A DNA stretch of 64,000 bases, from NCBI RefSeq assembly GCF_018555685.1, contig NZ_JAFLWW010000005.1, positions 124,001 through 188,000 of the forward strand. The letters are read 5' to 3'. Both the position numbers and the translations under genes were made by a program. Positions 772 through 20,282 of this stretch are shown here, in pieces. Position 1 is the first letter of the stretch. Each line of letters starts with the position of its first letter. The notes under the pieces were generated by a model. It saw nothing but the letters and a program-made list of their open reading frames with translations. It was not told the DNA's origin and did no database searches. This DNA comes from Aminobacter anthyllidis. Lineage in GTDB: Bacteria > Pseudomonadota > Alphaproteobacteria > Rhizobiales > Rhizobiaceae.

Positions 772-780
772 GCCGGCCTC

Positions 781-875
781 ACCAGGGGGGTCCCGACAAG
801 GGGCTGAGATACTGCTCGCTAACGCAGCGCAGTGACCCGTTGAACCTGATCCAGTTCACACTGGCGTAGGGACGG
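781..875 (+). promoter_or_regulatory. TPP riboswitch (THI box)
   Basis: The leader of thiC carries the conserved thiamine-pyrophosphate aptamer blocks in order: GGGG near 796-803 followed by CTGAGA at 804-809, ACCCGTTGAACCTGATC at 836-851, and TGGCGTAGGGA at 862-872. These are the signature P2/P4 elements of THI-box RNAs. The aptamer is followed by about 230 nt before the thiC start, so the expression platform must lie in that stretch. Binding of thiamine pyrophosphate should lower expression of the downstream operon. The identification is secure. The switching mechanism is not. Confidence 0.95.
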
Positions 876-985
876 TGCGAGGCGTTGCGGGTCGGGCATT
901 CCGGCTTTGGCATTCGGGCTCATGCCCGAAGTCCCTCAGGCAAACCTCACCTCCTCCTCATCGCACGAACTGGGTCTCCATTGCA

Positions 986-6454: not shown

Positions 6455-7288
6455 TCAACCCAGCCGCTGGGCGTGCCACCTCAGATGATCGTCCATGACG
6501 GTCGAGATGAAATTATAGGAGTGGTCGTAGCCGTCCTGCATGCGCAAGATGAGGCGGATGCCCGCCTTCTTGCAGGCGTCGTCGAGCAGCCAGGGGCGCA
6601 GGCCTTCCTGCAGGAAGCCGTCGGCCGAACCCTGGTCGACGAGGAATTCAGGGAACCGCTTGCCGTCCTCGATCAAAAGCGTCGTGTCATAGGCGCGCCA
6701 GGCCGCCTCGTCGGTGCCGAGATATTTCTCCAGTGCCGGCTTCGACCAGCCGGCGGTTGAGGGCTGGGCGATCGGCGCAAAGGCCGAGCAGCTCTTGAAG
6801 CGCTCGGGGTGCTTCAGGGCGATGGTCAGCGCACCGTGGCCGCCCATCGAATGGCCTGTGATCGCCTGGCGCGACATGTCGGCCGGGAAGTTTTGAGCGA
6901 TCAGCGCCGGCAATTCTTCGGTGACATAGGAATACATCCGGTAGTTTTTCGCGAATGGCGCCTCGGTCGCGTCGACATAAAAGCCGGCACCCGAGCCGAA
7001 CTGCCAATTGTCCTTCTCGTCGGCTATGCCTTCGCCGCGCGGGCTGGTGTCGGGGCAGACGATCATCAGGCCAAGCTCGGCGGCCAGGCGGCGGTATTCA
7101 CCCTTGTCCATGACATTGGCATGCGTGCAGGTCAGGCCCGAGAGATACCACAGCACCGGCACCGGGCCGTCCTTGGCCTGCGGCGGCACGAAGACGGCAA
7201 AGGTCATGTCGCAGGCGCAGGCCTCGGAGGCGTGCGCATAGACGCCCTGGATGCCGCCATGCGACTTCGACGTGGAAATGGTCTTCAT
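6455..7288 (-). CDS. fghA: S-formylglutathione hydrolase
   Basis: This cytoplasmic esterase-D-family enzyme hydrolyses S-formylglutathione to formate and glutathione, the second step of glutathione-dependent formaldehyde oxidation. The 277-residue alpha/beta hydrolase has the nucleophile motif GHSMGGHGA, the oxyanion-side LSGLTCTHAN block and a C-terminal catalytic His in YDHSYNF. The start at MKTISTSKSHGG (7288) fits family length, and the upstream in-frame Met at 7339 was rejected. It is the last gene of the minus-strand demethylation operon, 235 bp downstream of frmA. No gene was recognised in that gap. Confidence 0.95.
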   Translation of the reverse strand: MKTISTSKSHGGIQGVYAHASEACACDMTFAVFVPPQAKDGPVPVLWYLSGLTCTHANVMDKGEYRRLAAELGLMIVCPDTSPRGEGIADEKDNWQFGSGAGFYVDATEAPFAKNYRMYSYVTEELPALIAQNFPADMSRQAITGHSMGGHGALTIALKHPERFKSCSAFAPIAQPSTAGWSKPALEKYLGTDEAAWRAYDTTLLIEDGKRFPEFLVDQGSADGFLQEGLRPWLLDDACKKAGIRLILRMQDGYDHSYNFISTVMDDHLRWHAQRLG

Positions 7289-7523
7289 CTGCTCTGCCTT
7301 CTCGTCAAACAGTCCTGCCCCGGCATAACCTCGGGGCACAAGACCTGCAACCGCTCAAAAGAGATGCCGGCGGCGCGGCCGAGGGTTTGCAGAAACCTCG
7401 GGCGCACCGCCGGTCGACGCCACGACTTTGGGAACACGCGGGCCAAGCTGGGAGGCTTGAAGGCCGGCGAAAAGCCGTGGCGTTTGGGGGACCGGCCATG
7501 GGGGCCTGGCCGGCCGTGGCAGC

Positions 7524-8651
7524 TCAGTAGACGACGACGCTTCTGATGCTTTCGCCCGCATGCATCAGGTCGAAGCCCTTGTTGATGTCTTCGAGCTTGA
7601 GCGTATGGGTGATCATCGGGTCGATCAGGATCTTGCCGTCCATGTACCACTCGACGATCTTCGGCACGTCGGTGCGGCCGCGCGCGCCGCCAAAGGCGGT
7701 GCCTTTCCAGGTCCGGCCGGTGACCAGCTGGAACGGACGGGTCGCGATCTCCTGGCCGGCGCCGGCAACGCCGATGACGATGCTCTCGCCCCAGCCGCGA
7801 TGCGATGCTTCGAGTGCCTGGCGCATCACCTTGACGTTGCCGGTGCAGTCGAAGGTGTAGTCGGCGCCGCCGATCTGGTCGGCGCCACGCTTGGTCATGT
7901 TGACGAGGTAAGGCACGATGTCGCCCTCGACCTCCTTCGGATTGACGAAATGCGTCATGCCGAACTTTTCGCCCCAGGCCTTGCGGTCATTGTTGATGTC
8001 GACGCCGATGATCATGTCGGCACCGGCAAGCCTGAGGCCCTGCAGCACGTTGAGGCCGATGCCGCCGAGACCAAAGACGATCGCCGTCGAACCAATCTCG
8101 ACTTTTGCCGTGTTGATGACCGCACCGATGCCTGTCGTCACGCCGCAGCCGATGTAGCAGATCTTGTCGAAGGGCGCGTCCGGGTTGACCTTGGCGAGCG
8201 CAATCTCGGGCAGCACGGTGAAGTTCGAAAACGTCGAGCAGCCCATGTAGTGGAAGATCTTGTCCTTGCCGATCGAGAATCGGCTGGAGCCGTCCGGCAT
8301 CAACCCTTGTCCTTGCGTCGAGCGGATCGCGGTGCAGAGGTTGGTCTTGCGGCTGAGGCAGGACGGGCACGAGCGGCATTCCGGCGTGTAGAGCGGGATG
8401 ACGTGGTCGCCCTTCTTGAGCGAGGTCACGCCCTTGCCGACATCGACGACGACACCGGCACCCTCATGGCCCAAGATGGCCGGGAAGATGCCTTCGGGAT
8501 CGGCACCCGACAGCGTGAACTCGTCGGTGTGGCAGATGCCGGTCGCCTTGATCTCGACAAGCACCTCGCCCTCGCGCGGCCCCTCGAGGTCGACCTCCAT
8601 GATCTCGAGCGGCTTTCCAGCTCCTACGGCGACGGCGGCGCGGGTTTTCAT
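7524..8651 (-). CDS. frmA: S-(hydroxymethyl)glutathione dehydrogenase (class III ADH)
   Basis: This enzyme oxidises the formaldehyde-glutathione adduct to S-formylglutathione with NAD. The 375-residue zinc alcohol dehydrogenase carries catalytic-zinc motifs ICHTDE and GHEGAG, the four-cysteine structural-zinc loop (CRSCPSCLSRKTNLC) and the NAD motif VFGLGGIGLNVLQG. Sequence and length are those of class III ADH. Placed after demethylase and reductase genes, its job here is most likely to remove formaldehyde released by demethylation. The usual frmR repressor gene is absent. Confidence 0.96.
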   Translation of the reverse strand: MKTRAAVAVGAGKPLEIMEVDLEGPREGEVLVEIKATGICHTDEFTLSGADPEGIFPAILGHEGAGVVVDVGKGVTSLKKGDHVIPLYTPECRSCPSCLSRKTNLCTAIRSTQGQGLMPDGSSRFSIGKDKIFHYMGCSTFSNFTVLPEIALAKVNPDAPFDKICYIGCGVTTGIGAVINTAKVEIGSTAIVFGLGGIGLNVLQGLRLAGADMIIGVDINNDRKAWGEKFGMTHFVNPKEVEGDIVPYLVNMTKRGADQIGGADYTFDCTGNVKVMRQALEASHRGWGESIVIGVAGAGQEIATRPFQLVTGRTWKGTAFGGARGRTDVPKIVEWYMDGKILIDPMITHTLKLEDINKGFDLMHAGESIRSVVVY

Positions 8652-8719
8652 CTTTTCTCACTCCCAAAACTGGATTCATGGCCGCGCGCATCGCCCGGCC
8701 TGGATGTTGCTTGTTGTGC

Positions 8720-9367
8720 TCAGGCAGCCTTGGCCGGACCTGCCGGGAACACGCCCGACATCACGGAAAAGCCCTTGATGCGCTTGACACGGTCGCACCA
8801 GCGGCGGATTGCCGGATAGTCCTGTCTGGGGATGCCGCCCTCTTCCGACAGCATGATGTAGGGGAAGCAGGCGATGTCGGCGATCGTCGGCTGGGCGGCC
8901 GAGCAGATCCAGCTGCGCCCTTCCTGTTCGCCGAACCACAGATGCTCGTCGAGGATGCGGAACAGCCGGTGCGCCCCGGCGCGGGCCGCCTCGACGTCGA
9001 AATCGTAAAACAGCGCATCGTGCAGGCGCGCCGCCGAGGCGGTACCGGTGATGCCGTCGGCAAAGGCCAGCCACTGGCTGATTTCGCCGAGCAGCGCCGG
9101 ATTGTCGCGTGGGTACCAGCTGCCCGACGCATCGTATTTCGAGGCGAGATAGACAAGGATTGCCTGGGCATCGCGCAGGATCAGCCCGTCGTCGTCGATG
9201 ACGGGAAGCTGGCCGAGCGGATTGATCTTGAGGAACCAGTCCGACTTGTGCTCGCGGCCGGGATAGAAGTCGACGGGCACCGTCTTCCACTCGATCCCGA
9301 GCATGCCCATCAGAAGCCTGAGCTTGTAGCAGTTGCCCGACAGTTCGTAGTCGTAAAGCGTAATCAT
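8720..9367 (-). CDS. glutathione S-transferase family protein (NdmE-like)
   Basis: A 215-residue GST with an N-terminal thioredoxin-like domain (MITLYDYELSGNCYKLRLL, NPLGQLPVIDDDGLILRDAQAILVYLA) and an all-helical C-terminal domain. The ATG at 9367 follows TAGGAG; the earlier in-frame Met at 9412 overlaps the upstream gene. It lies 10 bp after the NdmD-like reductase. In Pseudomonas putida CBB5 a GST homologue, NdmE, sits with ndmC and ndmD and is needed for a stable NdmC-D-E complex. The context here suggests the same structural role, or a glutathione-linked step in formaldehyde capture. Function is inferred from context. Confidence 0.82.
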   Translation of the reverse strand: MITLYDYELSGNCYKLRLLMGMLGIEWKTVPVDFYPGREHKSDWFLKINPLGQLPVIDDDGLILRDAQAILVYLASKYDASGSWYPRDNPALLGEISQWLAFADGITGTASAARLHDALFYDFDVEAARAGAHRLFRILDEHLWFGEQEGRSWICSAAQPTIADIACFPYIMLSEEGGIPRQDYPAIRRWCDRVKRIKGFSVMSGVFPAGPAKAA

Positions 9368-9377
9368 CGGGAAACTC

Positions 9378-11144
9378 CTAGAGGTCGAGCACAAGCCGCG
9401 CCGACTTGGCACGCGACACGCAGGTCATGATCTTGGTGCCGGACTTGCGCTCGGCATCGTTGAGATAGACGTCCTGATGGTCCGGCTCGCCTTCGATGAC
9501 GGTGGCCAGGCAAGTGCCGCAGGCGCCCTGCTCGCACGACGACGGCATGTCGATGCCGGCGTCGCGCATCACCTCGAGGATCGTCTTGCCGGCCGGTACG
9601 GTCAGCGTCATGCAGGAGCGCGCCAGCGCCACCTCGAAGCTTGTGCTGTCGTCGATGACATTGGTGTTCTTGAAGTATTCGAAATGCACTGCCGTCTCCG
9701 GCCAGCCCATCTCGGCGGCGATGCTGCGCGCCGCTTCCAGCATCGGGCCGGGTCCGCAGAGATAGACATGCTTGTCGGGGCCGTAACCGCTCAGGATCTC
9801 GCGCAGCTGGGCGCCGGTCTGCTCTGGCGTCAGGCCAAGATGCGGCTTGAGTGAAGCGCCGAGCGTGCTGGTCTTCTCGGGGAAAGCGAGCTGGGCCTCG
9901 TTCTGGGCGAAGTAGTGCAGTTCGTGGTTGAGGCTCTGGTTGTTGAGCGCCTGGGCCATGGCGAGCAGCGGCGTGATGCCGATGCCGCCGGCGATGAACA
10001 ATGTCTGGAGCGCATCGCGGCGCAGCGGGAAATTGTTGCGCGGCTCGGAGATCGCCAGCACGTCGCCTTCGCGCACCGTCTCGTGCAGGCAGGTCGAACC
10101 GCCCTTGGAGTCGCGCTCGAGCTTGACGCCGATGACATAGCTGTCGCTTTCGCCCGGACCGTTGGTGATCGAATATTGCCGGATCAGCCCGTTGGGCAGA
10201 TGCACGTCGATATGGGCGCCGGGCTGGAAGGTCGGCAGCAGGCCCTTGATCGGCCTGAGTTCGAAGCCGGCGATGCCGTCAGCGGCCGGCCACTTCCTCG
10301 CCACCTGGACACGGATCGTCGCCTTGCGGCCATGTGTCGTCTCTTCCGGCATTTCGGCCAGTTCTGGCGAGACGCGTTCGATGATCGGCTCCAGCGGCGC
10401 CGGTGCAGGTTCCCGCGCGGCCTCGGCTTCGACGGCGACCCGCAGGCGCGAGAGAAGCTCGTTGTGGTGGCGCAGCACGGCGAGACGGGCGGCGCCTTCG
10501 ACCTCGCCGTCGAGCACGCCGCGGATCACCGAGCGGTTGGAATCGACCGGCTGGACGAAGAACACGGCGAGTGTGCTGGCATCAGCCTCGCTCGAACGCA
10601 GCGCCACCGAAAAGGCGTTGGAGGCTTCGACCGCGACCTTGGCTGCGGAGCCGTCGATGTAGCCGCTTGGCTGGAAGCGGTAGCCCGTAAGCCTGGCCGC
10701 CACCACGTCGGCGGGCGCGTTGACCGGAATGGCGCGCAGCGCCAGAAGCTCGCCCTCGGCAAACCCAGCAACCTCGGGCACCTCGCCTTGCGGCTCTTCT
10801 GCCGACCACACCAGGCCGTAGCGTTCGACGGCGGCAAAGGTGCGGTTGGTGATGGTGCGGGCCGGCGCATCGGCCGGGTGCGCCGGGATATAGGTGCAGC
10901 CGGCGGTGCGGTTGGAATAGCGCCAGCCATGGTACTGGCACTTCAGCTCGCGGCCGTCATTGATGCCGATCGACAGGCGCACGCCGCGATGCAGGCAGCG
11001 GTTTTCCCAGATGTTGACGTAGCCGTCGTCGGCGCGCCAGACGGCGAATTCGCGGCCGAGCAGCTGGCCATGAAAGACATGACGCAATGGAAGGTCGTGC
11101 GCCGCGGCGATGGGATGCCATCTGGATTTGGCTAGGTCGAGCAT
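9378..11144 (-). CDS. NdmD-like reductase with an extra N-terminal Rieske domain
   Basis: A 588-residue electron-transfer protein. Residues 1-110 form a Rieske domain with C50-L-H52 and C69-x2-H72. Residues of about 275-480 form a flavin/NADH reductase with RQYSITNG (flavin), GGIGITP (nicotinamide) and HVYLCGPGPML. The C-terminus is a plant-type [2Fe-2S] ferredoxin with C537, C542, C545 and C575. The N-terminal Rieske plus phthalate-dioxygenase-reductase order, and the length, match NdmD of the methylxanthine N-demethylases. Its neighbours are two oxygenases without Rieske clusters, so this Rieske domain probably supplies the electrons they need. The true substrate is unknown. Confidence 0.88.
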   Translation of the reverse strand: MLDLAKSRWHPIAAAHDLPLRHVFHGQLLGREFAVWRADDGYVNIWENRCLHRGVRLSIGINDGRELKCQYHGWRYSNRTAGCTYIPAHPADAPARTITNRTFAAVERYGLVWSAEEPQGEVPEVAGFAEGELLALRAIPVNAPADVVAARLTGYRFQPSGYIDGSAAKVAVEASNAFSVALRSSEADASTLAVFFVQPVDSNRSVIRGVLDGEVEGAARLAVLRHHNELLSRLRVAVEAEAAREPAPAPLEPIIERVSPELAEMPEETTHGRKATIRVQVARKWPAADGIAGFELRPIKGLLPTFQPGAHIDVHLPNGLIRQYSITNGPGESDSYVIGVKLERDSKGGSTCLHETVREGDVLAISEPRNNFPLRRDALQTLFIAGGIGITPLLAMAQALNNQSLNHELHYFAQNEAQLAFPEKTSTLGASLKPHLGLTPEQTGAQLREILSGYGPDKHVYLCGPGPMLEAARSIAAEMGWPETAVHFEYFKNTNVIDDSTSFEVALARSCMTLTVPAGKTILEVMRDAGIDMPSSCEQGACGTCLATVIEGEPDHQDVYLNDAERKSGTKIMTCVSRAKSARLVLDL

Positions 11145-11185
11145 AGGTTCCTCGCTGATATCTTGTCGTTGGCGCCTTCAGGCGC

Positions 11186-12091
11186 TCAGGTGGCGGCCGG
11201 GATGACCCCGTAGGTCACGCCCTTCTGGCTCAGCCACCGGCGGTAGGCGATCGCCGACTTGTCGGCTCTGATGGGGGTCTCGGCGCGCGGATCGAGCGGC
11301 AGGCGCTTGGGGAACTGGTTTTCCAGGATCGGCTTGTCCTGGCCGAAGATCGTCTGCTGGAAACGCTTGATCACCTTGTCTTCATTGTCCTCGTCGAGCA
11401 CGCACAGCAACATGTGCGCCCGGACATGTTCCTGATCGACCGGCTGCAGGAACACGGCAATGACATCGAGCCGCGTCTCGTCCATCGGGCTCGATTTGTA
11501 GAGCACCGAGCAATAGGGATGCGGCACCCGGTAGATGTAGTCGACATCGGCGCCGCCATCCGAAGTGGTCGATGCCATCGGCTGGAAAAAGCGGCAGCGT
11601 GTGGCCAGGATCTCGTCGCGGTCGACCGAGATCTCGACGTCGTATTCCTTCACTTCGGTATGCGGCTCGGCACCGAGAATGTCGGTGTGGACATAAGGGA
11701 AGTGGCCCATGTCGAGGAAGTTCTCGATCGCCCGCGGCGCCGAGACATTGACCCCGAACGTGGCGGCGTTGAGCTTGCGTCGGTCAGCCTCGGCATATTC
11801 GGGGATCGGGAAGATGTCGGCCGGCGGATTGCCGAGCGACGTCCAGACATAGCCATAGGCAAGCTTGACCGGCAGCGTGCCTTCGACCGCTGTAATGTCG
11901 ACCGGCCCGTCGACAGGCAGATCGCGTCGCGAACGCCAGACGGCAACCTTGCCGGTGCCGTCGGAGGCCAGGCTCAGGCGCTCTTCGAGCAGGATGGTGC
12001 CGACCACCACGCCGGCCGGCACTTCGGAAAGTGCGGCAAGCGGGTGCCAAAGGTCGAGGATCACCTGATCCTTGCATCTCGTCTCGGTCAT
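11186..12091 (-). CDS. Rieske-less aromatic-ring-hydroxylase-type oxygenase (NdmC-like), 1
   Basis: A 301-residue protein of the Rieske non-heme-iron oxygenase alpha-subunit family. The catalytic-domain iron motif is intact: N124, D127, H130 and H135 in ENFLDMGHFPYVH, with a C-terminal GQDKPILENQ block. The first 110 residues keep some of the Rieske fold (WHPLAALSEVP, YGYVWTSLG) but contain no C-x-H or C-x2-H pair, so no Rieske cluster can form. NdmC of P. putida CBB5 has the same loss and borrows the Rieske domain of NdmD. Probably an oxidative demethylase. It is paralogous to the next gene and 41 bp upstream of the reductase gene. Confidence 0.85.
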   Translation of the reverse strand: MTETRCKDQVILDLWHPLAALSEVPAGVVVGTILLEERLSLASDGTGKVAVWRSRRDLPVDGPVDITAVEGTLPVKLAYGYVWTSLGNPPADIFPIPEYAEADRRKLNAATFGVNVSAPRAIENFLDMGHFPYVHTDILGAEPHTEVKEYDVEISVDRDEILATRCRFFQPMASTTSDGGADVDYIYRVPHPYCSVLYKSSPMDETRLDVIAVFLQPVDQEHVRAHMLLCVLDEDNEDKVIKRFQQTIFGQDKPILENQFPKRLPLDPRAETPIRADKSAIAYRRWLSQKGVTYGVIPAAT

Positions 12092-12117
12092 CTAAGGTTC
12101 CTCCTGAGGGCGCGGGT

Positions 12118-12984
12118 TCACATCCGCGCCGGTATCGCGCCGTAAGTGACTGATTTGTCGCGCAGCCAGCGCCGGTACAAGACAGCAACCGCATCGGCGC
12201 GGATCGGCGTTTCAGCACGCGGGTCGAGCGGCAGGCGTCGCGGCAGCTGGTTTTCCAGGATCGGCTTGTCCTGGGCGAAAATCAGCTGCATGAAGTTGCG
12301 GATTCCGGCCTCGTCGCTGCCGTCCTTGAGATAGCAAAGGAAGGGATGGGCGACGCAATTCTCCTCGTCGACGGGCTGGACGAACAAGGTGATGACGTCG
12401 AGCCGCTCCTTCTGCACCGGATTGCTCTTGTAGAGCGCCACCGTGTAGGGGCGGATCACTTTGTAGATATAGTCGACGACAAAGCCTTCCTTGGCCGTCG
12501 GCGACGCCACCGGCTGGTAGAATTTGCATTCGGTCGCGACCAGTTCGTCGGCAGCCGTCAGCTCGACCTTGTAAGGCGCGACTTCCGTATGCGGCTCCTC
12601 GCCAAGCCAGCCGGTATGGACGAACGGGAAATGGCCCATGTCGAGGAAATTCTCGACCGTGCGCAGGCCTGAAACCTTGACAGCGATCGACCCGCCGGTG
12701 AGCAGGTAGCGGTCTTCCTCCTCGGCCTCCGGCACGAACACGATGTCGCGCTCCGGCTTGCCGAGGCAGGCCCACAGGAAGCCATAACGCTTGGTCGCAT
12801 TGACCAGCGCCCCGGTGTCGTTTCGCACCACTTCCTTGTTGTAGCGGCCACGGCAATAGACGGTCAGGTCAACGCCAAGCAGGCGGGTCTGGAACGGCTC
12901 GTGCGCCGACAGGTTGGTCAGGTCGGCGATCACATGCCAATCGTTAAGAAGGACTCTGTCGCTACAAAGGGCAGCTATGCTCAT
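12118..12984 (-). CDS. Rieske-less aromatic-ring-hydroxylase-type oxygenase (NdmC-like), 2
   Basis: A 288-residue paralogue of the neighbouring oxygenase. The mononuclear iron motif is present (N112, D115, H118, H123 in ENFLDMGHFPFVH), and the C-terminal DKPILENQLPRRLPLDPRAE block is nearly identical to its neighbour. The Rieske ligands are missing: the residual region has only lone cysteines (C7, C44, C73). The start at 12984 (MSIAALCSDR) follows GGGAGGG and was preferred to the in-frame codon at 13005. It is the promoter-proximal gene of the operon. The pair may form a hetero-oligomer or act on different positions of one substrate. Confidence 0.85.
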   Translation of the reverse strand: MSIAALCSDRVLLNDWHVIADLTNLSAHEPFQTRLLGVDLTVYCRGRYNKEVVRNDTGALVNATKRYGFLWACLGKPERDIVFVPEAEEEDRYLLTGGSIAVKVSGLRTVENFLDMGHFPFVHTGWLGEEPHTEVAPYKVELTAADELVATECKFYQPVASPTAKEGFVVDYIYKVIRPYTVALYKSNPVQKERLDVITLFVQPVDEENCVAHPFLCYLKDGSDEAGIRNFMQLIFAQDKPILENQLPRRLPLDPRAETPIRADAVAVLYRRWLRDKSVTYGAIPARM

Positions 12985-13057
12985 CGCACCCTCCCTGGCT
13001 AGCACTTCCCCGTGAACCTAGCTCTGTTATGCCCATATTGGAACCACAGGATTGGAT

Positions 13058-13120
13058 ATCAATCAATGACAATTTGCATGCCAAAGAAAGAATTTTGATT
13101 GACAGCTTGATTTGATTGAC
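13058..13120. promoter_or_regulatory. TTGATTGAC repeat cluster, candidate GntR operator
   Basis: The AT-rich divergent region between the oxygenase operon and the GntR gene holds TTGATTGAC twice in direct orientation (13095-13103 and 13112-13120, 17 bp apart) and once inverted as ATCAATCAA (13058-13066). Helical phasing of the repeats and their place between divergent units suggest binding sites for the adjacent GntR-family regulator. Confidence 0.5.
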
Positions 13121-13224
13121 TACCGATATGAGAAACGCAACTCGGGATATGCGGCGTCGCCGGCGCAGCGATAACCGGGCTGGCCGCCAAGCAAGCCAAA
13201 GGCGCTGGCGGGGAGGAGAATGCC

Positions 13225-13995
13225 ATGAGCAACCGCTCGCAGGCCATTGCCGATATGTTGACGCGGGCGATCCTCGATCACCGCCTCGTCCCCGGCTGCA
13301 AGCTCGGTGAGCGCGAACTGTCAGAGGTATTCGACGTCAGCCGCATCGTCATCCGCCAGGCACTGATCCGCCTCGCCGATGATGGTCTTGCCCAGATCGA
13401 GCGCAACCGCGGTGCCTTTGTCGCCCGTCCCAGCATGCAGGACGCAATGGAAATCTATGACGCGCTCACGCTCGTCGAACAGGGCGTCGCCGCTCAATTG
13501 AGCGACCGCCTAGGCCCAGCCGGCTGGGCCGAATTGCGCCAGCATGTCGAGCGCCAGCGCCAAGCCGTGGCTTCGGGCAACGACGCGCTCGCCGACGTGC
13601 TCGGGCAGGAGTTCCACACAGTGTTCGTGCGGCTCAGCCGCAACAAGGTGATGCAGGAGATTCACGCCCAGTTGGTCCGTCGTACGACCTTGCTGCGCTC
13701 GCTGATCACCGCCGATTTCGACTACTGCAACCTGCTCGACGACCATGCCCGTGTGGTCGAACTGCTCGAAAAAGGCCGGCTCAAGCCGGCGATGGAGCTG
13801 ATCGACGCGCATCACCGCTCCGTCGTGCGCGGCTACATCATGGACCGGCAGGTGTTTCCCGAACTGACACCACGCGAAGCGCTCGAACCTTATCTCGACG
13901 GCAAATCAGGCGAGCCGCCGAAACCGGCACCACGAAAGAAGGCCGGAGAAAATGGCGCGGCACGGGCGCATGCCCATGTCCACGCCGCAAAATAG
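13225..13995 (+). CDS. GntR-family (FCD domain) transcriptional regulator
   Basis: A 256-residue regulator with an N-terminal winged helix (residues about 1-70; LGERELSEVFDVSRIVIRQAL) and a C-terminal all-helical FCD ligand domain. Candidate metal-binding histidines lie in QEFHTVF, DDHARVV and DAHHRSVV. The tail after residue 230 is Pro/Lys/His-rich and probably disordered. ATG at 13225 follows GGGGAGGAG. It is divergent from the demethylase operon and 46 bp upstream of the importer genes, so it most likely controls both in response to the imported compound. Confidence 0.88.
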   Translation: MSNRSQAIADMLTRAILDHRLVPGCKLGERELSEVFDVSRIVIRQALIRLADDGLAQIERNRGAFVARPSMQDAMEIYDALTLVEQGVAAQLSDRLGPAGWAELRQHVERQRQAVASGNDALADVLGQEFHTVFVRLSRNKVMQEIHAQLVRRTTLLRSLITADFDYCNLLDDHARVVELLEKGRLKPAMELIDAHHRSVVRGYIMDRQVFPELTPREALEPYLDGKSGEPPKPAPRKKAGENGAARAHAHVHAAK

Positions 13996-13996
13996 A

Positions 13997-14013
13997 CCCG
14001 GCAAAAAGCCGGG
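13997..14013 (+). other. short stem-loop after the GntR gene
   Basis: CCCGGC-AAAAA-GCCGGG begins two bases after the GntR stop codon and ends 28 bp before the binding-protein start. It has no U-tract and may mark an mRNA processing or stability boundary. Confidence 0.35.
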
Positions 14014-14041
14014 CGCATCCAACCAACAGAGGGTTACCACC

Positions 14042-15136
14042 ATGTTCAATCTGACCAGACGGCAATTTCTGCAATATTCCGGCGCCGCGGGGGCCGCTCT
14101 CGGCACCACGGGCCTTGCCGGCATCGCCAGCGCCCAGGAGCCGCTCAAGATCGGTGTCGTCTATGTCTCGCCGATCGCCGACATCGGCTGGACCAAGCAG
14201 CACAGCCTCGGTGTCGACGCCATCAAGGCGGAGTTCGGCGACAAGGTCGCGCTGACCGTCATCGACAACATCTTCATGCCGCAGGATGCCGAACGCGTGT
14301 TCCGCGAACTCGCCGCTTCCGGCAACCAGCTGGTCTTCGGCACCTCGTTCTCGCATGGCACGCCGATGCAGAAGGTGGCGCCGCGCTTCCCCAAGGTCGC
14401 CTTCGAGCATTGCTCCGGCATCGTCCATCTCGCCAATCTCGGCACCTTCGAAGCCAAGTATTACGAGGGCACTTTCGTCGCCGGTGCTGCCGGCGCGCAT
14501 ATGAGCAAAGCCGGCAAGATCGGCTTCATCGGCGGTTTCCCGATCCCCGACATCGTCGGCCCTGCCAACGCGCTTCTGCTCGGCGCCCAGAGTGTCAATC
14601 CCGAGGCTACCTGCAATGCCATCTTCCTCAATTCCTGGTTCGATCCGGGCAAGGAAAAGGAAGCGGCCAACACGCTGCTGTCGCAGGGCTGCGATGTCAT
14701 CTGCTCGATGACCGACACCGCGACCGGTGTGCAGGTCGCGGGCGAAGGCGGCGCGTGGTCAATCGGCTACGCCAGCGACATGGCCAAGTTCGGCTCGGGC
14801 AAGCAGCTGACCGCCTTCACCCTCGACTGGTCGAGCGACTATGTCGGCGCCGCCAAGGGCGTGGCAGCAGGCACCTGGAAGCCCGAAGCGCGCTGGGACG
14901 GCCTGGCCGGCGGCGTCGTCAAAATGGCGCCCTACAATGAGGCGATCCCGGCCGACGTCATCACCAAGCTCAAGCAGCTCGAGGCCGACATCGGCTCCGG
15001 CAAGGTCCATCCCTATGCCGGCGAACTCAAGGACCAGGACGGCAACGTCAAGGTTGCGGCAGGCAGCGTGCTGGCCGATGCCGACATCCGCGGCATGAAC
15101 TGGTTCGTCAAGGGAATGATCGGCAAGCTCGGCTGA
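14042..15136 (+). CDS. BMP-family ABC transporter substrate-binding protein
   Basis: A 364-residue periplasmic binding protein of the basic-membrane-protein (PnrA-like) family. The N-terminus is a Tat-type signal (LTRRQFLQYSG, cleavage near IASAQ), so it is probably exported folded. The mature part starts PLKIGVVYVSPIADIGWTKQH, the usual BMP opening, and has FIGGFPIPDIVGPANA. The BMP family is known for nucleosides and related purines, though several members bind other ligands. It precedes an RbsA-type ATPase and two permeases, and the setting beside the demethylase operon points to a methylated heterocycle as ligand. Confidence 0.9.
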   Translation: MFNLTRRQFLQYSGAAGAALGTTGLAGIASAQEPLKIGVVYVSPIADIGWTKQHSLGVDAIKAEFGDKVALTVIDNIFMPQDAERVFRELAASGNQLVFGTSFSHGTPMQKVAPRFPKVAFEHCSGIVHLANLGTFEAKYYEGTFVAGAAGAHMSKAGKIGFIGGFPIPDIVGPANALLLGAQSVNPEATCNAIFLNSWFDPGKEKEAANTLLSQGCDVICSMTDTATGVQVAGEGGAWSIGYASDMAKFGSGKQLTAFTLDWSSDYVGAAKGVAAGTWKPEARWDGLAGGVVKMAPYNEAIPADVITKLKQLEADIGSGKVHPYAGELKDQDGNVKVAAGSVLADADIRGMNWFVKGMIGKLG

Positions 15137-15159
15137 TCTTCGCTTATCCGCTAGCAAGG

Positions 15160-15220
15160 CCACCGGGGCTCTACAGCGCCGCATGATTCCGATCTCGGGA
15201 TCAGGTGCTGGCTCCGGTGG
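15160..15220 (+). promoter_or_regulatory. long imperfect hairpin between binding protein and ATPase genes
   Basis: CCACCGG (15160-15166) pairs with CCGGTGG (15214-15220). Inside, AGCGCC (15175-15180) pairs with GGTGCT (15204-15209) and TGATTCC (15184-15190) with GGGATCA (15197-15203). It starts 23 nt after the binding-protein stop. Its likely role is 3'-end protection and reduced read-through, so that more binding protein than ATPase or permease is made. Confidence 0.5.
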
Positions 15221-15263
15221 ACTATGGCTGCGCACCGTCCAACCCTCACGGCAGGACCCGGCT

Positions 15264-16805
15264 ATGCCCCCACGCCTCGAATTGCGCAACATCACCAAAA
15301 GTTACCCAGGCATCATCGCCAATGACGACATCTCGATGTCGATCATGCCAGGCGAAATCCACGCCGTGCTCGGCGAAAACGGCGCCGGCAAATCGACATT
15401 GATGAAGATCATCTATGGCGCGGCGCAGGCCGATGCCGGTGAGATCTTCTGCGACGGCAAACCCATCGCCGCCCACACGCCAGCGACATCGCGGGCGCTC
15501 GGCATCGAAATGGTCTACCAGCATTTCGCGCTGTTTGAATCCGTCACCGTGGTCGAAAACATCGCGCTCGCCGTCTCGAGCACCTTCGACCTCGATGCGC
15601 TGGCGCGCCAGATCACCGAGCTGTCCAACCGCTACGGCATGCCGATCGACCCGCACCGCCGCGTCCACGACCTGTCGGTCGGCGAACGCCAGCGCGTCGA
15701 GATCGTGCGCTGCCTGCTGCAGGCGCCGAAGCTTTTGATCCTCGACGAGCCGACCTCGGTGCTGACGCCGCAGGCCGTCGTCAAGCTGTTCGAGACCTTG
15801 CGTCAGCTCGCCGCCGAAGGCTGCTCCATCGTCTACATCAGCCACAAGCTCGACGAGGTGCAGGAGCTTTGCGACAGCGCCACCGTGCTGCGCAACGGCA
15901 AGGTGACAGGCACCGCAAGGCCAAAGGAAAGCACCTCGGCCCAGCTCGCCCGGCTGATGGTCGGCGCCGAGCTGCCCGAAATGCATGTCAGCCCTTCGGT
16001 GCCGAGCGACAAGCCGGTGCTCGAGGTGCGCGGGCTAACCGCCCCTGCCCGCGACAAATACGGCGTCGAACTCAAGAACATCTCGTTTGAGGTGCGTGGC
16101 GGCGAGATCGTCGGGCTTGCCGGCGTCTCCGGCAACGGTCAGGCCGAGCTGATCTCGCTGCTCAGCGGCGAGCGCACCCATGGCAATGCGCTGTCGATCC
16201 AGATCGACGGCAAGGCGGCCGCCCATCTCAACGCCAGCGAAAGGCGCAAGCTCGGCATGGCCTTCGTGCCGGAGGAGCGGCTCGGTCGCGGAGCCGTGCC
16301 GCCGCATGCGCTGTGGCAGAATGCCGTTTTGACCGCCCATCGCTCCGGGCTGGTGCGCAATGGCCTCGTCGACCGCAAGCAGGCGAGCAATTTCGCCGCC
16401 AAGATCATCGAGCGCTTCAAGGTCAAGGCCAACGGCCCGCAGTCGAGCGCGCAGAGTCTTTCCGGCGGCAATCTGCAGAAGTTCATCGTCGGCCGCGAGA
16501 TCGCACTCGAGCCCAAGCTGTTCCTCGTCGCCCAACCCACCTGGGGCGTCGACGTCGGTGCTGCCGCCTTCATCCGCCAGACGCTTGTCGACCTGAGCCG
16601 CTCGGGTGCCGCCGTGCTGGTGATTTCGGAGGAACTCGACGAGCTGTTCGAGATCTGCGACCGCCTGCTCGTCATCTGCCAGGGCCAGGTCTCGCCGCCA
16701 CTGATCAGGACAAAAACCAACCGCGAGGAAATCGGCCTGCTGATGACAAGGGTCGACCGCGGCAACGGCACCAATGGGAGAGGCGAAGTTGCGATTCAGG
16801 ATTGA
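15264..16805 (+). CDS. ABC transporter ATP-binding protein, BMP/RbsA type (two NBDs)
   Basis: A 513-residue protein with two fused nucleotide-binding domains. The first has Walker A GENGAGKST, signature LSVGERQRVE and Walker B LLILDEPTS. The second has the degenerate Walker A GVSGNGQAE and signature LSGGNLQKFIVGRE, as in RbsA/YufO-type ATPases. The start at 15264 (MPPRLELRNITKSYPG) matches the family. The in-frame ATG at 15183 is inside the hairpin and was rejected. It energises import through the two downstream permeases. Confidence 0.92.
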   Translation: MPPRLELRNITKSYPGIIANDDISMSIMPGEIHAVLGENGAGKSTLMKIIYGAAQADAGEIFCDGKPIAAHTPATSRALGIEMVYQHFALFESVTVVENIALAVSSTFDLDALARQITELSNRYGMPIDPHRRVHDLSVGERQRVEIVRCLLQAPKLLILDEPTSVLTPQAVVKLFETLRQLAAEGCSIVYISHKLDEVQELCDSATVLRNGKVTGTARPKESTSAQLARLMVGAELPEMHVSPSVPSDKPVLEVRGLTAPARDKYGVELKNISFEVRGGEIVGLAGVSGNGQAELISLLSGERTHGNALSIQIDGKAAAHLNASERRKLGMAFVPEERLGRGAVPPHALWQNAVLTAHRSGLVRNGLVDRKQASNFAAKIIERFKVKANGPQSSAQSLSGGNLQKFIVGREIALEPKLFLVAQPTWGVDVGAAAFIRQTLVDLSRSGAAVLVISEELDELFEICDRLLVICQGQVSPPLIRTKTNREEIGLLMTRVDRGNGTNGRGEVAIQD

Positions 16806-17856
16806 ACAAAGACCGGAACCATCCGCCAGGATGCGGGTGGCGGCACCGGTCATCGCGACCGGGCTTACGCTTCTCGTCGGCTCGCTGTTGTTTGCCGTGC
16901 TCGGCTATGACCCGCTGGCGACGCTGCAAGCCTTCTTCATCGCCCCGCTCAACTCGTTGAACGGGATTTCAGAGTGGCTGCTCAAGGCCTCGCCGCTGAT
17001 CCTCATCGCCTGCGGCCTGGCCGTCGGCTTCCGCGCCAATGTCTGGAACATCGGCGCCGAGGGCCAGCTTATCATCGGCGCCATTGCCGCCTGCGGCGTC
17101 GGCCTGTTTTACCCCGACCCCGACAGCATGCTGCTTTTGCCGCTGATGTTTTTCGCCGGCGCCATCGCCGGCATGGCGTGGGCCGCGATCCCCGCCTTCC
17201 TCCGGGCGCGGATGAACACCAACGAGATCCTCGTCACGCTGATGCTGACCTATATCGCCACCCTGCTGTTGTCGTGGCTGGTCCACGGCCCCTGGCGTGA
17301 CCCGGCCGGCTTCAACTATCCGCAGACGGCACTGCTCTCGGCGGCGGCGATGTTCGAGCCCTTCGACTATGCCTACCGGCTCAACGCCTCGGTGTTCATC
17401 ACCGTGGTCGCCGTATTCCTGATGTGGCTGTTCACCGATCGCAGCTTCCTTGGCTACAAGATGTCGGTCAGTGGTGCTGCACCTCTGGCGGCACGTTACG
17501 CCGGCTTCCGCGAATCCGCCGCCGTCTGGACCGGCCTGCTTGCCGGTGGCGCTGCCGCCGGCATCGCCGGCATGGCCGAGGTCTCGGGCCCGCTCGGACA
17601 ATTGTCGCCGCAGATCTCGCCCGGCTACGGTTTCGCCGCCATCATCGTCGCCTTCATCGGTCGCCTCAATGCCTTCGGCATCGTCCTCGGGGGATTGTTG
17701 ATGTCGCTACTTTTCCTCGGCGGCGAAGCAGTGCAAATGAATCTTGGCCTGTCGGCTGCGCTGACCCGCATCTTCCAGGGCATATTGTTGTTCTTTTTGC
17801 TTGCCGCAGACTTCTTCATCTTCTACCGGCTTCGCCGCATTCCGGAGCATGCCTGA
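16774..17856 (+). CDS. ABC transporter permease, BMP-type, subunit 1
   Basis: A 360-residue inner-membrane permease of the branched-chain/BPD_transp_2 type, with about eight to ten hydrophobic segments and the family block ASPLILIACGLAVGFRANVWNIGAEGQL. The chosen ATG at 16774 overlaps the ATPase gene by 32 nt. A TTG start at 16789 is possible. It ends TGATG with the next permease. Together they form the membrane channel of the BMP importer. Confidence 0.9.
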   Translation: MGEAKLRFRIEQRPEPSARMRVAAPVIATGLTLLVGSLLFAVLGYDPLATLQAFFIAPLNSLNGISEWLLKASPLILIACGLAVGFRANVWNIGAEGQLIIGAIAACGVGLFYPDPDSMLLLPLMFFAGAIAGMAWAAIPAFLRARMNTNEILVTLMLTYIATLLLSWLVHGPWRDPAGFNYPQTALLSAAAMFEPFDYAYRLNASVFITVVAVFLMWLFTDRSFLGYKMSVSGAAPLAARYAGFRESAAVWTGLLAGGAAAGIAGMAEVSGPLGQLSPQISPGYGFAAIIVAFIGRLNAFGIVLGGLLMSLLFLGGEAVQMNLGLSAALTRIFQGILLFFLLAADFFIFYRLRRIPEHA

Positions 17857-18776
17857 TGGACTTGTTCATAGCCATTTTCACCGGCACCATCATAGCCGCG
17901 ACACCCTTGATCTTCGCTGCCCTTGGCGAACTCGTCGTCGAAAAATCAGGCGTTCTCAACCTTGGCATCGAAGGCATGATGCTGATGGGCGCTGCCTTTG
18001 CCTTCTGGGCAGTGATCGCCGGGCTGCCGATGCCTGTCGCCATCCTTGCCGGCGCGCTTGGCGGGGCCGCCGCCTCGCTGCTGTTCGGCGTCCTGGCGCT
18101 GACCTTCCTGACCAACCAGTACGCCGCGGGCCTGGCGCTCGCCATCTTCGGCTCCGGCGTCTCGGCCTTCCTGGGCCGCAACTTCGGCTCGGCACCGATC
18201 GACGCGCTGAAGAAGATCTACATTCCCTATCTCTCAGACATTCCGGTCATCGGGCCGATGCTGTTCCGCTTCGATCCGATGGTCTATTTCGCCATCGTCA
18301 TGTTCTTTGTCATCAGCTGGTTCCTCTACCGCACCAAGGGCGGGCTGGTGCTGCGCACCATCGGCGAGTCGCCGGAGACGGCGCACGCCATCGGCTATCC
18401 GGTGATCCGCATACGTTATCTCGCCGTGCTGTTCGGCGGGCTGATGGCTGGTCTCGCCGGCGCCTATCTGTCGGTCGCCTACACCCCGCTATGGGTCGAA
18501 AACATGACCGCCGGCAAGGGCTGGATCTCGCTGGCGCTGGTGGTGTTCGCGACATGGCGGCCGCTGCGCGTGCTGCTTGGCGCCTGGCTGTTCGGCGGCA
18601 TGACCATCCTGCAGCTGCAGGGCCAGGCGCTCGGCATCGCGGTTCCCTCGGAACTGCTTTCCGCCCTGCCTTATCTCGCAACGATCATCGTGCTGGTCAT
18701 CATCTCGCAGAACCGCCAGATGCTGGCGCTGCATTTCCCGGCGTCGCTGGCCAAGCCGTTCCGGCCCGCGACCTGA
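17856..18776 (+). CDS. ABC transporter permease, BMP-type, subunit 2
   Basis: A 306-residue BPD_transp_2 permease starting MDLFIAIFTGTIIAATPLIF and holding the typical EKSGVLNLGIEGMMLMGA block near residue 30. It has about eight to ten hydrophobic segments. Its ATG shares one base with the stop of the upstream permease. It ends the operon and is convergent with the M81 metallopeptidase gene, 33 bp away. No clear terminator was seen in the gap. Confidence 0.92.
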   Translation: MDLFIAIFTGTIIAATPLIFAALGELVVEKSGVLNLGIEGMMLMGAAFAFWAVIAGLPMPVAILAGALGGAAASLLFGVLALTFLTNQYAAGLALAIFGSGVSAFLGRNFGSAPIDALKKIYIPYLSDIPVIGPMLFRFDPMVYFAIVMFFVISWFLYRTKGGLVLRTIGESPETAHAIGYPVIRIRYLAVLFGGLMAGLAGAYLSVAYTPLWVENMTAGKGWISLALVVFATWRPLRVLLGAWLFGGMTILQLQGQALGIAVPSELLSALPYLATIIVLVIISQNRQMLALHFPASLAKPFRPAT

Positions 18777-18809: not shown

Positions 18810-20282
18810 TCATGCCCAGGGATCATTGACCCTGGGCCATACCGGACGGACAAGCTTGGTGTAGTTGGTCACGCGCGGATTGCTCGGATACGAACTCGGC
18901 GCGTCGACATAGATGATCTCGGCCGCCACCGGCGCGAAGCCGGCGTAGAAATGGTTGGTCGACTTGACCAGCAAAATGTCCTTGCTGGCTAGGTCGATGC
19001 CGAGATTGGAGAAGATGTCGGGCTCGAAGGTCTGGGTGCGGTTGGTGTTGAGGATGACGTCGACCTCGGTCCCCAGGATGCGCACCAGCGCCGTTTGCCC
19101 GAGCGTCACGCGGCTCGGCCCGAAACTCTGCCAGCCTTCCTCGACCGCCTTCAGCACCTGAACCCTGGCGTCGATCGGCTCGCCGGCCTGCGGTCCCGCC
19201 TTGCCGCCGAAACGCAGGTCGATGACGGCACCTTCGCCCGCCGCGTGGCAGAAGGTCACCGCGATCGGGTCCCAGATCGTCGCCACGCCGACCTTGTCGA
19301 GGCCGCGCTCCAGCATCCGCCGCAGCATGAAGGTGCCGTCGCCGGCGACCCCGCCGCCGGGATTGTCCCAGACGTCGGCGATAACAGCGGGCTTTGCCGG
19401 ATTGGCCCGGCGCGCGCTCAGCGCCTGGTCGATGCCGGCGTCGGTGTCGACCATCGTCATCGCGGTCTTTTCGCGCATGGCATAAAGCTCGCGGCCGAGC
19501 TTTTCGGCGAGCGCGTCGCCCTTGGCCTTGTCGTTGTCGGTGACGACGACGATGCGCGAGCCCATTTCCGGCACGTCGGAGGCCATGAAGCCGTGAATCA
19601 CCGACACCGACAGGATGCCGTCCTTGCCGTGCAGCGCCTTGATGCGGTCGACGAAGCTCCGCATCGGCTCGCGGCTGGTCGGCAGCACGGTGATCATGCG
19701 GCAGTCGAAGGTCGAGATGACGGGCTTGATCTCGCCACGCGCTGCGGCCAGGCCAAGCGCGACGACATGCTCGCCGCGCTCGTAGAAATCGGTGTGCGGA
19801 AATTCGAGGAAGGCCGCGAGCACATTGCAGGCGGCGACGCGCTTCGGCGTCAGGTGGCTGTGCGGATCGAACTCCGCAGCAACCACGACGTCGGGGCCGA
19901 CAATGTCGCGGACCCGCGCCAGGAGGTCGCCCTCGCAGTCGTCATAGCCCTGCGCCACCATCGCGCCGTGGAGGCCAAGCATGACGGCGTCGACCGGCAG
20001 CGCCGCCCGGAGCTGGTCGAGGATTTCGTCGCGCAGCGCCTCGAAGGTCTGGCGTTGCACCAGCCCGCCCGGCTCGGCCCAGGTGGCGGTGCCTTCGATG
20101 ACGGTCAGTGCGTCGGCAGCGGCGCGGCGGCGCAGCGCCACGATCGGCGACGAGCACAAGGTCGGTGTCTCCGGATGCTGGCCCGGCCCGGCGTAGAACG
20201 CCATCTCGAACGAGGCGCGATCGGTCGGCACCGGCGAGAAGGTGTTGGTCTCGGTCGCCAGCGAGGCGGTGAAGATGCGCAT
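18810..20282 (-). CDS. M81 family metallopeptidase (MlrC-like)
   Basis: A 490-residue protein of the M81/microcystinase C family. Diagnostic blocks are TASLATETNTFSP at residues 4-16, GLHGAMVAQGYDDCEGD, EFDPHSHLT with probable metal-binding Asp and His residues, and ADVWDNPGGGVAGDGT. MlrC cleaves linearised microcystin breakdown products, but most homologues have no known substrate and many sit beside ABC transporters. Here it is last in a minus-strand unit after a sugar-type binding protein and two permeases, so it may hydrolyse an amide in the imported compound. Confidence 0.88.
   Translation of the reverse strand: MRIFTASLATETNTFSPVPTDRASFEMAFYAGPGQHPETPTLCSSPIVALRRRAAADALTVIEGTATWAEPGGLVQRQTFEALRDEILDQLRAALPVDAVMLGLHGAMVAQGYDDCEGDLLARVRDIVGPDVVVAAEFDPHSHLTPKRVAACNVLAAFLEFPHTDFYERGEHVVALGLAAARGEIKPVISTFDCRMITVLPTSREPMRSFVDRIKALHGKDGILSVSVIHGFMASDVPEMGSRIVVVTDNDKAKGDALAEKLGRELYAMREKTAMTMVDTDAGIDQALSARRANPAKPAVIADVWDNPGGGVAGDGTFMLRRMLERGLDKVGVATIWDPIAVTFCHAAGEGAVIDLRFGGKAGPQAGEPIDARVQVLKAVEEGWQSFGPSRVTLGQTALVRILGTEVDVILNTNRTQTFEPDIFSNLGIDLASKDILLVKSTNHFYAGFAPVAAEIIYVDAPSSYPSNPRVTNYTKLVRPVWPRVNDPWA

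Follow-up and report, generated by a model that had tools for sequence, protein, structure and literature searches.

We report that a 64,000-nucleotide stretch of Aminobacter anthyllidis DNA (contig NZ_JAFLWW010000005.1, positions 124,001 to 188,000; hereafter the window) carries, at positions 6455-18776, an operon which, as judged from homology and gene order, is a real and conserved two-oxygenase variant of the NdmCDE N-demethylase of Pseudomonas putida. The operon probably imports and N-demethylates a methylated purine, perhaps methylguanine. Its products include those that characterise the NdmCDE type, namely an iron-site subunit devoid of a Rieske cluster (present twice, as C1 and C2), a reductase extended by a Rieske domain (D) and an adjoining glutathione S-transferase (GST)-like subunit (E).

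Organization of the locus

The open reading frame (ORF) list and family profiles resolved the region into two divergent transcription units, with six genes on the minus and five on the plus strand. The minus unit is transcribed in the order C1, C2, D, E, frmA, frmB, with intergenic gaps of 26, 41, 10, 68 and 235 bases. The features are as follows:

12118..12984 (ORF to 13005), minus: C1, NdmC-type oxygenase without Rieske cluster (VanA_C only)
11186..12091, minus: C2, second NdmC-type oxygenase without Rieske cluster (VanA_C; groups with NdmC)
9378..11144, minus: D, reductase of NdmD architecture (Rieske, NAD_binding_1, Fer2)
8720..9367 (ORF to 9412), minus: E, GST-like NdmE homologue (GST_N/GST_C)
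7524..8651, minus: frmA, glutathione-dependent formaldehyde dehydrogenase (TIGR02818, class III alcohol dehydrogenase)
6455..7288 (ORF to 7339), minus: frmB, S-formylglutathione hydrolase (TIGR02821)
12998..13022, minus: leader element, GCTAG/CTAGC inverted repeat in the 5' untranslated region of C1 (from conservation)
13050..13064, no strand: putative GntR operator GATTG-ATATC-CAATC (recurs in GntR/C intergenic regions)
13225..13995, plus: GntR/FCD regulator (PF00392, PF07729)
14042..15136 (ORF from 13952), plus: BMP-type substrate-binding protein with twin-arginine translocation signal (PF02608, TAT_signal)
15183..16805, plus: ATP-binding cassette (ABC) transporter ATPase with two cassettes (ABC_tran, two stretches)
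16774..17856, plus: ABC transporter permease 1 (PF02653, BPD_transp_2)
17856..18776, plus: ABC transporter permease 2, with a likely ATG start at 17856 (PF02653, BPD_transp_2)

The true starts of C1, E, frmB and BMP likely lie inside their ORFs. The candidate for C1 is the ATG at 12984, which is preceded by AGGGAGG, and the translations suggest 9367, 7288 and 14042 for E, frmB and BMP, respectively.

The same gene order was found on pSymA of Sinorhizobium meliloti, at 83-91% identity and without adjoining frmAB, and again in Aminobacter and Mesorhizobium loci, a recurrence that excludes chance. C2 is 99% identical to its counterpart in Aminobacter carboxidus, which places the source genome near that species. 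Within the family, 73 of 297 genomes had C-type genes at E <= 1e-60; within the class, where the limit was E <= 1e-40, 8 of 385 genomes had them, the source genome included. A first set of 80 relative loci comprised the best 80 of 561; individual loci are denoted below by L and a number.

Relation to the NdmCDE system

The ndm cluster on the P. putida MT178 plasmid is authentic, since its NdmB matches 6icl over the full length and the last 87 residues of its NdmD match NdmD chain 6icm_D. Identity to this cluster was 44% for C1, 48% for C2, 37% for D, matched over its full length, and 65% for E, which is the best-conserved part; for the GntR regulator, FrmA and FrmB it was 39%, 59% and 47%, respectively. 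An initial annotation, made from the sequence alone, had described two oxygenases, a reductase, a GST and frm genes facing a divergent GntR gene and BMP importer, and had proposed kinship with NdmC, NdmD and NdmE. The ORFs and family profiles agree with the former and the above identities with the latter.

An NdmA or NdmB orthologue was not found in the genome: with NdmB, itself 54% identical to NdmA, as the query for both, the best full-length match was 29% identical. On this search a full NdmABCDE caffeine pathway was rejected; the initial annotation had already noted that a Rieske-bearing NdmA/NdmB-type oxygenase is missing from the window. The nearest solved sequences and folds to the oxygenases were SxtT/GxtA, NdmA and NdmB, which speaks against membership of a ring-dihydroxylase clade, the placement that the initial annotation had named as contrary to its proposal; the tree consisted of Ndm-type rows and HpxD only.

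As in P. putida CBB5/MT178, a Rieske-less oxygenase, a Rieske-fused reductase and a GST are encoded in the order C-D-E (PMC4408171). The P. putida cluster also has frm genes and a GntR gene nearby. It differs from the present operon, where two oxygenases share one D/E, D shows only 37% identity, a BMP importer takes the place of the nucleobase symporter, NdmA/NdmB were not found and a third oxygenase lies elsewhere in the genome. Homologues of ndmCDE in Sinorhizobium and Mesorhizobium were named as being of unknown function in a 2015 review (PMC4408171). The class is therefore not new, and the system can no longer be presented as an unrecognised find. By homology and order the operon belongs with these homologues, but here frmAB are joined to it, whereas C1 is decayed or absent in some Sinorhizobium. 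Literature searched with S. meliloti locus tags mentioned SMa1507, a tag that we do not connect with this operon type, in tables and lists only.

C proteins and the N-terminal half of D carry complementary metal-site motifs

Profile search detected the VanA_C domain in C1 and C2 and no Rieske domain. C1 keeps the Fe-ligand motif ENFLDMGHFPFVH and lacks CxH..CxxH; C2 likewise has the 2-His motif and no Rieske motif. This holds across the family, as the Rieske motif was seen in 0/133 C proteins and the iron-site letters D..H....H in 132 of them, the exception (L049) being a cut row. Residues 1-266 of D (10347-11144) form a Rieske plus degenerate oxygenase domain, and from about residue 280 onwards follow the reductase and a plant-type ferredoxin. 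A search with the N-terminal half of D returned 103 rows, one of which was NdmA, a complete oxygenase. Excluding NdmA, all 102 D or Rieske-partner proteins had the Rieske motif and none had D..H4-5H between that motif and the reductase; loose matches to D..H4-5H occurred upstream of the Rieske motif in two D-type rows (L022, L091), and three Devosia rows had one within the reductase half, at residue 407.

Structure prediction gave a model of D residues 1-266 with a predicted local distance difference test (pLDDT) score of 84.8, which by Foldseek spanned the whole oxygenase of SxtT/GxtA (template modelling (TM) score 0.69-0.73 by query length, 19-22% identity). The C1 model (pLDDT 86.8) also had SxtT/GxtA as best PDB matches (TM 0.77-0.83). 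C1 and the N-terminal half of D thus share the fold of SxtT/GxtA and NdmA, but unlike these complete enzymes the C proteins and the D half each lack one metal-site motif. When aligned by hhalign, the D half and C matched end-to-end (probability 97.1%, E 5.4e-11, 177 columns), with C gapped at the cluster loops of D, and D having non-ligand residues or gaps at the iron ligands of C. On these alignments and models, C and the N-terminal half of D seem to be what is left of a single Rieske oxygenase, each keeping what the other has lost, a relation that we add to what is published on the homologues. Since one retains the iron site and the other the Rieske cluster, the usual path from the cluster of one subunit to the iron of its neighbour would be regained if C and D assembled into a mixed ring.

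Gene structure in relatives fits such a division. The Rieske half is a gene of its own, of about 200-256 aa, in L131, L135, L140 and others, and the reductase is a separate gene in L140-142 and L149 (by Pfam for L140, by similarity for the others). The system would offer a clean natural case of two metal centres of one enzyme being parted between two proteins, for which the split NdmD forms are ready-made material for structural work.

Catalytic paralogues

C1 and C2 are 49% identical. A third NdmC-type paralogue, C3, likewise Rieske-less, is present in the same genome (C25:28601-29440). In the tree, built from 130 of the 133 C rows (rows below 240 aa and L033_9364 being left out) and three outgroups, 34 C1-type rows fell on one side of a branch with Shimodaira-Hasegawa-like approximate likelihood ratio test (SH-aLRT) support of 92, and C2, C3 and NdmC fell together (SH-aLRT 98), although the place of NdmC is unsure because its branch is long. 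At the site aligned with FNDLVFAED of NdmA and FQKRVLEED of NdmB, C2 and NdmC both read FQQTIFGQD, C1 reads FMQLIFAQD and C3 reads FHQTILGQD. The three paralogues therefore differ at the specificity positions of NdmA/NdmB. The list of PDB entries includes an NdmA 'QL mutant', whose Q and L we take to be N282Q and F286L, presumably shifting the choice between N1 and N3.

The run around C3 (L112, C25:18601-38600) contains genes for a 2-hydroxyacid dehydrogenase, serine hydroxymethyltransferase, a porin, an AraC-type regulator and a second BMP importer. D or E was not found in the 20 kb read around C3, so C3 may borrow D/E of the operon in the window. In L037-L040, C3 and its importer directly precede C1-C2-D-E-frmA. 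The operon had been described as self-contained; this is right in that D/E, the frm genes and an importer are all present, and less so if a third paralogue in a second operon uses the same D/E. In Sinorhizobium K101 and S. meliloti 4H41 (L009, L018), C1 is reduced to a remnant upstream of C2 (matching about residues 1-76 and 1-109) and C2-D-E is retained. C1 was not found in the S. medicae locus. Thus, C2-D-E can stand alone.

Formaldehyde disposal genes

The frmA and frmB products scored 589.4 bits against TIGR02818 (cut-off 543.95) and 453.5 bits against TIGR02821 (cut-off 281.7), respectively, in keeping with the formaldehyde disposal originally assigned to them. In Aminobacter, and in several loci of Mesorhizobium and Ensifer, frmA is the gene that immediately follows E; within 6 kb it was present in 15/112 loci and frmB in 9/112. 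Two further copies of frmA exist in the genome (L151 9284-10411 and L152 9329-10456), 99% identical in protein and 96% in DNA, the similarity in DNA stopping where the gene does. The gene on one side of the first copy encodes a ferredoxin-type reductase and that on the other side GFA, the glutathione-dependent formaldehyde-activating enzyme; the gene for a complete Rieske oxygenase of the VanA type precedes them. A near-identical copy within a Rieske demethylase-type operon argues that frmA of the window serves a methyl group. For the other copy no oxygenase was recognised in the surrounding ORF list, and no further search was made. The identity of the copies may reflect recent copying or gene conversion.

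Importer and purine-related neighbours

The best PDB matches of the BMP protein were AtzT (6pi5, 324 bits) and then 3s99, which belong to the same family of importer binding proteins. Guanine stayed bound to AtzT while the protein was purified; binding is at 110 nM for guanine, 2.5 µM for adenine and 620 µM or weaker for pyrimidine bases (PMC6834077). By alignment to AtzT, three of its seven guanine contacts are identical in the BMP protein (S97, F98, W194). The pattern W-S-F-x-D-P-W-M-D was shared by 40/56 BMP proteins, including those encoded off-cluster. Its M corresponds to N218 of AtzT, where the guanine amino and hydroxyatrazine isopropyl groups sit (PMC6834077), and methionine at this position would suit an N-methyl group.

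Guanine deaminase genes recur in the relatives. Products scoring over the TIGR02967 cut-off are encoded 3' of E in L020, L041 and L088, in the same run in L089, and also in L131; guanine deaminase was assigned by similarity in L113, L133 and L143, and the L053 (Nocardioides) protein reached 374.4 bits against a cut-off of 375.4. In L020, which has the window's own operon type, the deaminase-type gene occupies the slot of frmA. A TIGR02967 search covered the genomes behind 50 of the 80 loci; among the matches listed, several deaminase-bearing genomes had other, higher-scoring guanine deaminases elsewhere, so in these genomes the cluster copy is an extra one. Other purine-related genes were an 8-oxoguanine deaminase in L132 (620.5 bits, cut-off 532), relatives of it under the cut-off in L135-139, L148 and L150 (L136: 363 versus 532), an adenine deaminase-like gene in L131 (350 bits, under the 472.5 cut-off) and, in L090, a purine permease that also contains an OHCU decarboxylase domain. 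In L131-134 and L143 (Rhizobiaceae), split-D oxygenase genes are joined with guanine, 8-oxoguanine and adenine deaminase-type genes, assigned partly by similarity. L131 also carries sulfopyruvate/phosphonopyruvate decarboxylase-like genes and a GMC oxidoreductase gene, and in L113 (3534-9760) two 2-oxoglutarate-Fe(II) oxygenase genes and one for a TonB receptor lie beside the oxygenase/guanine-deaminase cluster.

Of the loci not of Devosia type, 69 extended 1.5 kb or more past E; among these, frmA was found within 6 kb in 12, a purine deaminase in 18 and both in none. These and the other 6-kb counts given here include near-duplicates (the window with L012, L088 with L145, and the Sinorhizobium loci among themselves), take Devosia-type loci from a hand-made list and score deaminases by similarity over a bit threshold, with L053 not counted; frmA beyond 6 kb (L141, L149) falls outside them.

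Proposed function and alternatives

From the gene content, homology, lost and kept motifs and context, we infer substrate, reaction, complex geometry, and regulation with its sign as follows. The substrate taken up by the BMP-type ABC importer would be a purine bearing an N-methyl group; a methylated guanine or methylxanthine, set free as nucleic acids or plant material are turned over, is the most likely candidate. The N-methyl group would be hydroxylated by D and E in complex with one of the C proteins (C1 or C2), with electrons passing from NADH through the flavin and ferredoxin domains of D to its Rieske cluster and on to the mononuclear iron of C; E would hold C and D together, and in a mixed C/D ring neighbouring subunits would supply the cluster and the iron. 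Formaldehyde would be released and converted by FrmA and FrmB to formate, and the free purine would pass to ordinary catabolism. C1 and C2 may act on different methyl positions or substrates. GntR is predicted to repress at GATTG-N5-CAATC until the purine is present.

Salvage of caffeine or methylxanthines proper, with C2DE as a 7-methylxanthine N7-demethylase as in P. putida and C1DE covering N1 or N3, from the leftovers of other microbes, would explain why C2 shares FQQTIFGQD with NdmC and groups with it, and why frm genes are present as in the ndm cluster. We nevertheless regard it as unlikely, since an NdmA/NdmB orthologue was not found in the genome, the importer is of the BMP type where the ndm cluster has a nucleobase symporter, and the guanine/adenine deaminase-type genes in relatives would be needless for xanthines. 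A methylated purine had been guessed at in the initial annotation, and the importer kinship and the deaminase neighbours strengthen that guess. Methylxanthine does not stand as the sole candidate; methylguanine suits the neighbours better.

Removal of a larger N-alkyl group (e.g. from an N6-modified adenine such as cytokinin) or hydroxylation of the purine ring, with frmAB as a passenger, would agree with the fact that clusters lacking frmA carry adenine deaminase-like genes and genes of the 8-oxoguanine deaminase type, and with the annotation of the relative HpxD as a xanthine hydroxylase subunit. That frmA stands right behind E in Aminobacter, as in several loci of Mesorhizobium and Ensifer, and that a 99% identical sister belongs to an operon of the VanA type, makes this decidedly improbable. 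The substrate might also lie outside the purines, as would trigonelline (N-methylnicotinate) or another N-methyl heterocycle. Legume symbionts encounter trigonelline, and about 3.4 kb beyond E a set of molybdenum hydroxylase genes does occur in S. meliloti ml47. As far as the sequence past E was read in S. meliloti 4H41 and S. medicae, no such set appeared, and importer family and deaminases point to purines; trigonelline was rejected on these grounds and non-purine heterocycles as a whole appear very improbable.

Demethylation of a methylated purine thus remains our preferred reading, and several observations weigh against it. Four of the seven AtzT contacts are changed in the BMP pocket (Y45W, E165D, which is conservative, N218M and N220D). 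A deaminase occurs in only one close locus of the window type (L020), the others being more distant or of the split-D form. Neither frmA/frmB nor a deaminase lies within 6 kb in 37 of the 69 non-Devosia loci, and within the same distance no importer, frm or deaminase gene was found in the 27 Devosia-type loci (three of them cut short before E). Deaminase-bearing relatives without frmA may perform another oxidation.

In a broader and more speculative form, for which we see some possibility, the operon would belong to a widespread bacterial route that demethylates modified nucleobases (methylguanine and kin, from RNA or cap turnover) by a divided Rieske oxygenase. Such an enzyme would require co-assembly of two complementary degenerate paralogues, and one Rieske partner would serve several catalytic paralogues of different regiospecificity, one of them in trans. 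Methylated bases are made in every cell, and among the papers listed by our literature searches none dealt with a bacterial route demethylating free methylguanine; searches on cytokinin and trigonelline likewise gave little or nothing. The operon names testable genes for bacterial methylguanine demethylation, and suggests a possible function for the ndmCDE homologues listed as function unknown in the 2015 review (PMC4408171).

Putative operator and leader of the minus unit

The putative operator GATTGATATCCAATC at 13050-13064 is present in a single exact copy in its own genome, and TATCCAAT was present in 31/40 GntR/C intergenic regions read. The palindrome was not seen in the printed region of MT178 (L010).

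The 25-base leader at 12998-13022 has GCTAG/CTAGC arms and a strongly conserved loop. Allowing up to two mismatches, it was found in 14/297 genomes of the family, at one place in each and always directly 5' of a C-type gene; its own genome likewise has one place. It also precedes the C1 remnant of K101, and the S. medicae locus, in which no C1 was found, has it as well. An NMT1 xanthine riboswitch was considered for the leader and rejected for want of an Rfam match, the scan of 12900-13300 at E up to 5 returning only a weak PreQ1-III on the opposite strand. Folding of three leaders was not unusually stable (z -0.26 to -1.02), and the case for the hairpin is therefore made by conserved sequence and by a single A-U to G-C double change in the leader of L020. 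The leader is possibly a small regulatory RNA.

Other features of the window

A thiamine pyrophosphate (TPP) riboswitch (774-890, plus strand, 67 bits; gathering threshold 54.3) lies upstream of a plus-strand run of ORFs that resemble thiamine-synthesis genes. An M81 metallopeptidase (MlrC-like; 18810-20282, minus strand) scored 385.5 bits, below its cut-off of 999, and adjoins ORFs resembling a sugar-type ABC transporter; this is apparently a separate unit.

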